A stretch of 64,000 bases of DNA from the NCBI GenBank assembly GCA_902587085.1, contig CACIJX010000001.1:1-64000 (forward strand). The letters run 5' to 3'. This document shows positions 4,248-23,291 of the stretch, in pieces (position 1 is the first letter of the stretch; each line of letters begins with the position of its first letter). Both the position numbers and the translations under genes were made by a program. Below the pieces are notes generated by a model. It was not told the origin of the DNA, made no database searches, and saw only the letters and a program-made list of their open reading frames with translations. This DNA comes from an uncultured Pelagibacteraceae bacterium (lineage in GTDB: Bacteria > Pseudomonadota > Alphaproteobacteria > Pelagibacterales > Pelagibacteraceae).

Positions 4248-4686
4248 AATTAAACTTTTCTTAATATTTTCTTTTTTCTTTTTAAATACTCTTAATGCTG
4301 ATTCACAATATTACTTAACTCTAAGAAATGAGAAAGTTAATCTTAGACAGGGGCCCTCTCTTGATCACCCAATTAAATTGGTTTATAAAAAAAAATTTTT
4401 ACCTATTCTTGTAATTGATAATTCATATAATTTTAGAAAAGTAATGGATCATGAAAATAACTCTGGTTGGATACATATTTCTCAATTGTCAAAAAAGAAA
4501 GCAGCTTTAAATAATGAAGATAATTCTACCATTTTTAAAAAACCTTCTAACTTTTCAAAACCATTAGCAACTTTAGAAAAAGGAAGACTGTGCTTGGTTA
4601 AGAAGTGTAAAAGTGACTGGTGTAAAATTGAAACCGGAGATTATATCGGATGGGTCAAAAGGAAAAGTTTGACCGGAAGACTATAA
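4240..4686 (+). CDS. Secreted SH3-like domain protein
   Basis: N-terminal signal peptide (LKIKLFLIFSFFFLNTLNA), then two SH3_3-like repeats (NLRQGPSLDHPI, GWIHISQL, WCKIETGDYIGWVKRKSL); ATG 4240 overlaps moeB stop. Confidence 0.7.
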   Translation: MLKIKLFLIFSFFFLNTLNADSQYYLTLRNEKVNLRQGPSLDHPIKLVYKKKFLPILVIDNSYNFRKVMDHENNSGWIHISQLSKKKAALNNEDNSTIFKKPSNFSKPLATLEKGRLCLVKKCKSDWCKIETGDYIGWVKRKSLTGRL

Positions 4687-4935
4687 TTTTCTTTTTGAAA
4701 TTACTCTAGAAGCCCAGAATTTATCTAAAAGAAAATACCAAACCGAATTTGCTAATGGCTCCACAATTGCATCTGTTAATGCTATGTAGAAAGATACGTC
4801 TGCAACTAACATTAATACGGTAATGGCAATTACAAAGTGACCAATTGTGTAAACAATTGTTCTTAATATTGATCCTTTATTTGTATAGTAGATTTTTTTT
4901 GAGGCATTAAATATACCAGATGTTAATTCTGTCAT
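4681..4935 (-). CDS. DUF2061-like small membrane protein
   Basis: 84 aa with paired TM segments (SILRTIVYTIGHFVIAITVLML; ALTDAIVEPLANSVWYFLLDKFW), typical of DUF2061; just downstream of katG. Confidence 0.6.
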   Translation of the reverse strand: MTELTSGIFNASKKIYYTNKGSILRTIVYTIGHFVIAITVLMLVADVSFYIALTDAIVEPLANSVWYFLLDKFWASRVISKRKL

Positions 4936-4936
4936 T

Positions 4937-7123
<2,187 letters not shown>

Positions 7124-7137
7124 TTATTTTATAACTA

Positions 7138-7166
7138 CTTTATAATTATTCTAAAGTACGTGTCAA
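7138..7166 (-). promoter_or_regulatory. katG promoter (TTGACA-N16-TATAAA) with an embedded 19-bp palindrome resembling Irr ICE / PerR box
   Basis: Minus strand reads TTGACA CGTACTTTAGAATAAT TATAAAG; palindrome CTTTAGAATAATTATAAAG at 7138-7156 has one mismatched pair. Confidence 0.65.
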
Positions 7167-7189: not shown

Positions 7190-7612
7190 TTAATTATTAT
7201 TTTCTAATCTTATTACAACTTCAACGTTTTTAATTTTCTTGCCTTTCGGGGCCTCAGGAAGTTTTTGAAAGGTAATTTTGTCGCTCTTAATATCGATCAC
7301 TCTACCATTATCAAAGAAGTGATGATGGGATGTGATATTTGTGTCATAGCATGATGTGTTGTTTTCTAAAGAGAATTCTTTTAAATACCCTGCGCTTTTA
7401 AGCGCATGCACAGTATTATAAAAAGTTGCTGTGGAAATTTTATTAGATCTTTTTAAATTCATAGAGTTTTTTAATGCCTCAACTGTAAAATGAAATGTTT
7501 TTTTTCTGTTAAAGAGAAATCTGGTTATTTCTACTCTTTGCTTAGTAGGTCTTAGGCCTGAAGATCTAAGTTTATCAATAAAAATCTTGTTTTTATTATT
7601 CATTTTTTGCAT
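7190..7612 (-). CDS. irr: Fur-family regulator, Irr type
   Basis: LRPTKQRVEITRFLF winged helix; TATFYNTVHALKSAGYLKEF; CYDTNITSHHHFFDNGRVIDI resembles the Irr HHHFF region; neighbours fabA-fabB-fabI as in Rhizobiales. Confidence 0.8.
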   Translation of the reverse strand: MQKMNNKNKIFIDKLRSSGLRPTKQRVEITRFLFNRKKTFHFTVEALKNSMNLKRSNKISTATFYNTVHALKSAGYLKEFSLENNTSCYDTNITSHHHFFDNGRVIDIKSDKITFQKLPEAPKGKKIKNVEVVIRLENNN

Positions 7613-7685: not shown

Positions 7686-8192
7686 ATGAAACAAAAAAAC
7701 AGTTACAACTATAATGAACTAATTGAATGTGCGAACGGTAACCTCTTTGGTGAAGGGAATGCACGTTTACCGCTACCACCTATGCTTATGTTTGACAGAA
7801 TTACAGAAATAAAAACAAGTGTAGGTAAATATAAAAAAGGAATCATTAAAGCCGAACTGGATGTAAAGGATAAAATGTGGTTTTTTGATTGTCATTTTAA
7901 GGAAGACCCTGTTATGCCAGGATGTTTAGGACTAGATGCTATGTGGCAGATGGTTGGATTTTTTTTGGGATGGATTGGGGAACCGGGTAAAGGACGTGCT
8001 TTAGGTGTAAATTCTGTTAGATTTACTGGAGAAGTTCTTAAAAAAGTCAAAATGGCAACATATGAAGTTGATATGAAAAAAGTTTTAAAAACAGAGGGTG
8101 GAACAGTTGGTTTTGCAGATGGGATTTTAAAGGCAGATGGAAAACAAATATACACTGCAGAAAATTTAAAAGTAGGAGTTTACAAACAATGA
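7686..8192 (+). CDS. fabA: 3-hydroxydecanoyl-ACP dehydratase FabA (start moved to ATG 7686)
   Basis: [45 protein letters not shown] motifs. Confidence 0.97.
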
Positions 8193-22859: not shown

Positions 22860-23291
22860 TTAATTCTTTTTATTTAATTTCTGAGCATAAAGTTCTAGTT
22901 TATGATCTACCAGTTTGTATCCTAACCTTTGAGCAATTTTGTTTTTTAATTCCTCAATATCTTTGTCAACAAACTCTACTATTTCTCCGCTATTTATATC
23001 TATTAAATGATCATGGTGTTCTTCAGTAAGAGGTTCATACCTTGACTTACCTTCTTTAAAATCATGTCGTTCAATAATTCCAGCTTCTTCAAATAATTTT
23101 ACTGTTCTGTAGACAGTAGCAATGCTTATTTTGTCGTCGACTTTGGAAACACGTTTGTGCAGTTCATCCACATCTGGGTGATCTTTGGAGCCATAAGTCT
23201 CTTTTGAGTCAGACATAACCTTTGCAATAACTTTTCTTTGCTCAGTAAGCCTTACACCCTTTTGTTTACATTTTTCTTCAATTTTACTCAT
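22860..23291 (-). CDS. fur: Ferric uptake regulator family protein (Fur/Mur-like)
   Basis: GVRLTEQRKVIAKV; ISIATVYRTVKLFEEAGII; EEHHDHLIDINSGEIVEF. Confidence 0.88.
   Translation of the reverse strand: MSKIEEKCKQKGVRLTEQRKVIAKVMSDSKETYGSKDHPDVDELHKRVSKVDDKISIATVYRTVKLFEEAGIIERHDFKEGKSRYEPLTEEHHDHLIDINSGEIVEFVDKDIEELKNKIAQRLGYKLVDHKLELYAQKLNKKN

Follow-up and report, generated by a model that had tools for sequence, protein, structure and literature searches.

SAR11 bacteria rank with the most common cells of the sea; they have few regulators, live at low iron and encounter photochemical H2O2, and whether catalase is lost or kept is a central point in thinking about which organisms remove peroxide on behalf of the community. 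In one recent study, most of the offshore SAR11 genera had the catalase-peroxidase gene katG in common (PMC12636525). Here we analyse a 64,000-nucleotide stretch of DNA from a SAR11 draft genome (the window), in which katG lies next to a gene for a Fur-superfamily regulator, with a near-palindrome between the two. We ask whether this palindrome is an operator of katG, which regulator binds it, and with what effect.

The irr-katG locus

The gene order in the window is fabA-fabB divergent from irr-katG-DUF2061, with the following features (window coordinates).

4681..4935, minus strand: DUF2061 membrane protein gene, 3' of katG (PF09834, 1.5e-5)
4937..7108, minus strand: katG, catalase-peroxidase (TIGR00198, 1013.6 bits, cut-off 770)
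7138..7156, minus strand: putative operator CTTTAGAATAATTATAAAG, Irr-box/ICE-like (sequence, conservation in katG promoters, co-occurrence with irr)
7139-7155, minus strand: operator core TTTAGAAtaATTATAAA, inside CTTTAGAATAATTATAAAG
7158-7136, minus strand: extended 23-bp dyad TACTTTAGAATAATTATAAAGTA, 10 of 11 arm pairs matched
7139..7144, minus strand: predicted -10 hexamer TATAAA of the katG promoter (sequence, N16 spacer)
7161..7166, minus strand: -35 hexamer TTGACA of the katG promoter (sequence; TTGAC kept in many relatives)
7190..7612, minus strand: irr, Fur-superfamily regulator assigned to the Irr type, 140 aa (Pfam FUR 1.1e-18, NCBIfam, synteny)
7686..8192, plus strand: fabA, divergent from irr (TIGR01749, 242.8 bits)

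The encoded KatG is full length with its catalytic motifs present, and the DUF2061 gene, which also lies 3' of katG in same-genus loci, is possibly co-transcribed with it. The irr-fabA pair is a conserved anchor of the locus, found likewise in SAR11 relatives and in Ruegeria pomeroyi (irrA with a divergent fabA). Within this constant frame, the irr-adjacent slot across SAR11 usually holds either katG or rubrerythrin (e.g. L092, L093 and L243-L271, compared with window 4937-7108), and two katG lineages, ∼55% identical, also replace one another there. In G038 the irr-katG pair is separate from the fab locus, but a perfect ICE, TTTAGAATTATTCTAAA, persists between the DUF2061 gene and fabA (L102:2197-2213). 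One same-genus match, L016 (the katG of G030), carries an in-frame TAA.

The box in the katG promoter

The box lies between irr (7190-7612) and katG (4937-7108) in a window of 30% GC. The preliminary description had reported TTGACA-N16-TATAAA with a 19-bp near-palindrome on the minus strand, one mismatch away from both the Irr ICE and the PerR box, and re-reading and recomputing the sequence gave the same result. The dyad of CTTTAGAATAATTATAAAG matches in 8 of 9 arm pairs across 19 bp, the sole mismatched pair being a left-arm G against a right-arm A, and the box differs at one position from TTTAGAAnnnTTCTAAA, which we take to be the Irr ICE consensus dyad, and at one position from TTATAATnATTATAA, presumably the consensus dyad of the PerR box.

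TATAAA sits within the right half of the operator. A promoter scan favours a -10 shifted by 2, TAAAGT (spacer 18), over TATAAA (N16), and either may be the hexamer in use. The box overlaps the spacer and the -10 in the window and in nearly all SAR11 katG promoters inspected, unlike in the L254 katG promoter, where it lies just 5' of the -35.

As a bare palindrome the box is weak evidence, since DNA of 30% GC yields about two dozen as good: 24 of the ∼64,000 19-mers in the window, and five 23-mers, equal or better it. A search of the window for TTTAGAANNNTTMTAAA with up to one mismatch found no second site, against 1.3 expected from shuffles, and the whole draft genome (G000, 0.70 Mb, 58.55% complete) contains three exact matches, the katG site among them; these and the other genomic site counts are pattern searches. 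It is conservation, rather than the quality of the palindrome, that lifts the box above chance.

Conservation upstream of katG

Whether the motif is kept upstream of katG in relatives had been set beforehand as a check, and it is kept: in 60 distinct promoters of SAR11 katG genes the 17-bp core TTTAGAAnnATTATAAA hardly varies, and most flanking positions drift. In all 23 same-genus genomes with the katG lineage of the window (that of the window included), irr lies immediately upstream of katG with the box between them. The second katG lineage (∼55% identical) has the same box (G031, G032, G035), and the box is found in several genera. Among the named records, almost every SAR11 katG adjoining irr has TTTAGAAnnATTATAAA, and intact SAR11 katG genes without a nearby irr (L147, L150, L153, L023) have none. 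Departures from this pattern are a katG apart from irr with a box at one mismatch (G050), a variant with both ends altered (G038), a decayed box despite the presence of irr (L149), and a retained box in a genome where no irr was found and which is 83% complete (G035). Covariation of the outer bases of the dyad (C..G versus G..C) is only suggestive, with a shuffle p of 0.066 that ignores kinship.

These data bear on the possibility that there is no operator, and that conservation reflects an AT-rich promoter or -10 element, or hitch-hiking with irr. The right half does hold the -10, and the low GC content makes comparable palindromes common. However, the left-half TTTAGAA in the spacer, which is no promoter element, is invariant across the 60 promoters while the -35 region drifts; the box recurs at the unlinked katG of G050, in reversed orientation at a peroxiredoxin gene and upstream of irr; and it falls to background in genomes without irr (below). 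We therefore consider this explanation very improbable.

Outside SAR11, the katG of an alphaproteobacterium (SS_bin_35) has a near-perfect ICE, TTTAGAATAATTCTAAT, 84 bp upstream (L161:2887-2903), hinting that Irr control of katG may extend beyond SAR11.

The neighbouring regulator

By sequence comparison, the regulator is of the Irr type. Its NCBIfam scores are 133 bits for IrrA, 118 for Irr, 65 for PerRB, 46 for PerRA and 28 for Fur. Both Irr scores lie under the cut-offs (133 of 150 for IrrA, 118 of 170 for Irr), which are naming thresholds rather than defining traits, and the IrrA deficit reflects divergence rather than missing parts, since positions 6-137 of the 138-position model are aligned. 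Annotated IrrA proteins of Ruegeria and Mesorhizobium align along its length with ∼40% identity (41% for Ruegeria). The Irr-type HHHFF segment noted earlier was recovered as the His cluster H96-H97-H98, containing the HxH motif of the heme site and invariant in 30 aligned SAR11 proteins, and the Irr models are the ones that match best. The Cys-Pro heme motif that drives turnover of Bradyrhizobium japonicum Irr is absent from the first 40 residues of every SAR11 Irr checked. This motif is limited to some Irr proteins (PMC7762939).

The protein also resembles PerR in part, and Irr could act as a PerR-like peroxide sensor, that is, as a repressor that carries a metal and lets go when its histidines are oxidised, with little role for heme. 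This reading is a version of the Irr explanation that differs on the signal alone. All five regulatory metal ligands of PerR are retained (H37/D85/H91/H93/D104, aligned to H41/D90/H96/H98/D107), the best Foldseek matches of an AlphaFold model are PerR proteins (with PerR and Fur structures both matched), and the target genes serve peroxide defence. However, the ligand positions do not discriminate between Irr and PerR, because annotated IrrA proteins largely keep them too; the structure model is of moderate confidence (pLDDT 79.6); and the PerRB score is half of the Irr score. In addition, alignment shows the structural Zn(Cys)4 site of B. subtilis PerR to be absent, the regulator having a single cysteine and no counterpart of PerR C96 and C99. 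We regard PerR-like sensing as possible, and hold it tentatively.

In searches of the genomes with the Irr protein, most gave one Irr and one Fur-like match each, and no clear PerR. The PerR-box-like appearance of the operator need not mean a separate regulator, since there is no clear PerR match and Irr itself carries PerR-type ligands.

Occurrence of the box and irr across genomes

Co-occurrence was assessed in a set of 198 SAR11 genomes (at least 80% complete, plus the window's own) using the strict box TTTAGAAYNATTATAAA, with the same pattern reversed as control. The strict box is present in 136 of the 198 genomes and the reversed control in about 34. It occurs in 132 of 171 genomes with irr and in 4 of 27 without (Fisher 6e-10, kinship ignored; such values overstate independence as the genomes are related), where four genomes with only ∼1e-13 matches in the Irr search were classed as having Fur only. 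Box frequency in the irr-lacking genomes is at background level. Of their four boxes, two fall within genes and a third at the beginning of an unrelated gene; the fourth is at a contig end, ∼75 bp from fabA, in the place where the start of irr would be expected. In a smaller katG set, all 28 genomes with irr have the box at katG, in exact or slightly altered form, as does 1 of the 5 that lack irr.

A different Fur-family protein could in principle be the binder: the Fur/Mur-like protein encoded at 22860-23291 of the window, ∼16 kb from the box, would repress katG with iron or manganese, and the Irr neighbour would be coincidental. Fur-family boxes look alike, and in Magnetospirillum binding of Fur to katG (by ChIP) and its down-regulation have been reported (PMC3251581). 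However, three same-genus genomes (G002, G006, G029) keep the Fur-like match, lack irr and have no box at katG, which speaks against Fur as the binder, as does the drop to background in genomes lacking irr. In many genomes irr itself has the box upstream, and a distinct Fur-box-like element, TTGATAATAnTTATCAA, exists in rubrerythrin promoters. Binding by this second protein thus appears improbable, and Irr is the preferred candidate.

Other genes carrying the box

Of 43 sites inspected (40 loci), 36 lie in promoters of katG (22), irr (12), rubrerythrin (1) or a 1-Cys peroxiredoxin (1), and the remaining 7 are mostly inside genes. Exact or near-exact copies of the TTTAGAAnnnTTCTAAA palindrome occur at rubrerythrin in many SAR11. 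In a Pelagibacter-like family the irr-adjacent slot often holds rubrerythrin behind a near-perfect ICE, TTTAGAATGATTCTAAA, located just 5' of a TTGACA promoter; no rubrerythrin match was found in G038 and G050, the sole sampled members of this family with katG. Judged by these sequence patterns, the detectable Irr sites of SAR11 are few and almost confined to irr and peroxide-defence genes.

The site counts give no ground for a large hidden Irr regulon: in six genomes, sites with one mismatch show no clear excess over the reversed control, and most of those inspected lie inside genes, although weak sites may be missed by this search. We rejected a rule that the ICE G/C is lost only in the half doubling as the -10, which fits katG and peroxiredoxin and fails at rubrerythrin, because rubrerythrin in the family of the window has an asymmetric box 5' of the -35.

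Several promoters show further features. The 1-Cys peroxiredoxin gene shares its box-bearing intergenic region with a divergent gene, persulfide-dioxygenase-like by eye (L105:2435-2515, L106, L230, L275), and the reversed box there contains a perfect TATAAT in its left half. Rubrerythrin promoters of one family have the second palindrome, TTGATAATAnTTATCAA, 5' of the ICE (L201-L219), and some of those in the other family (L263, L265, L271) combine an Irr-like box above the -35 with a second on the -10.

Proposed mechanism

The box at 7138-7156 is very probably the operator through which the adjacent Irr controls SAR11 katG, presumably by repression and release. In heme- or iron-poor cells, an Irr dimer without heme would occupy the box over the spacer and -10 and block RNA polymerase, so that the heme-costly KatG would not be made. 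Abundant heme, or oxidation of the His-rich site by peroxide, would cause Irr to leave the promoter or to be degraded, and katG would be expressed. Heme and peroxide need not exclude each other as signals. The preliminary description had proposed that Irr controls katG; control itself gains support from conservation, co-occurrence with irr and the Irr-type protein, while its sign and its heme, iron or H2O2 signal are what we infer, repression from the box covering the spacer and -10.

This scheme draws on studied Irr proteins. Apo-Irr binds the ICE and represses or activates according to the position of the box (PMC7762939), and the His cluster mediates the oxidation of Irr that has bound heme (PMC4700492). 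In Rhodobacter sphaeroides, mbfA (membrane ferritin) and ccpA (cytochrome c peroxidase) are direct targets of Irr; katE, which showed neither an Irr box nor binding in vitro, was considered to be affected indirectly (PMC3413700).

The dependence on box position raises the alternative that Irr activates katG instead of repressing it. A box just 5' of the -35 in rubrerythrin promoters and in the L254 katG promoter would accord with activation, and for rubrerythrin suggests that Irr may activate there. At katG, however, the box in the window and in nearly all SAR11 promoters takes the usual repressor position over the spacer and -10, and activation is unlikely. Under iron limitation in strain HTCC1062, rbr mRNA rose 1.57-fold and irr was unresponsive (PMC2864753). 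If this rbr is the irr-linked copy, the rise fits Irr activation of rbr; it is silent on katG.

If repression by Irr is correct, production of KatG in SAR11 depends on heme and iron status through Irr, a testable rule, suggesting that SAR11 tie peroxide defence to heme supply. TTTAGAAnnATTATAAA upstream of irr, katG, rbr and prx would serve as a simple sequence marker. A broader proposal, to which we give even chances, is that in SAR11 Irr has turned from a global regulator of iron into a near-dedicated one of peroxide defence. Its sites would comprise irr, the peroxidase gene in the irr-adjacent slot (heme KatG or non-heme rubrerythrin) and, in some lineages, peroxiredoxin; iron or heme cost, together with ocean habitat, may decide which enzyme takes the slot; and the katG operator would be an ICE/PerR hybrid with one half doubling as the -10.

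Comparison with known systems

Irr and the ICE are known, and so is control of katG by Fur-family proteins. Neither direct action of Irr on katG nor any Irr target in SAR11 turned up in a literature search whose reach did not extend to Rodionov 2006, said to be the main earlier comparative study of Irr regulons, and we make no claim of priority for the SAR11 rubrerythrin site.

The system most closely resembles the rhizobial and Rhodobacterales Irr-ICE system, sharing an Irr-type protein, the half-site TTTAGAA and, as in Ruegeria, the irr-fabA adjacency. It differs in that the target here is katG, the box combines one ICE half with a TTATAAA half that doubles as the -10, and the detectable SAR11 sites are nearly all at irr and peroxide-defence genes rather than those of iron and heme metabolism. 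With Bacillus-type PerR it has in common a Fur-family regulator, a TTATAATnATTATAA-like dyad, a peroxide-defence target and the five metal-ligand positions, whereas the structural Cys4 zinc site is absent and sequence models place the SAR11 protein with Irr.

The work on Candidatus Pelagibacter ubique concerns a SAR11 bacterium with both Fur and Irr in which rubrerythrin is iron-responsive; its available part mentions no Irr target or box and no catalase (PMC2864753). In many SAR11, rubrerythrin adjoins irr behind a box. Magnetospirillum gryphiswaldense offers a parallel at katG itself, with an alphaproteobacterial Fur-family protein and a 19-bp palindromic motif at the katG promoter (PMC3251581); there Fur is the acting protein, whereas in SAR11 the presence of the box tracks irr and not fur.
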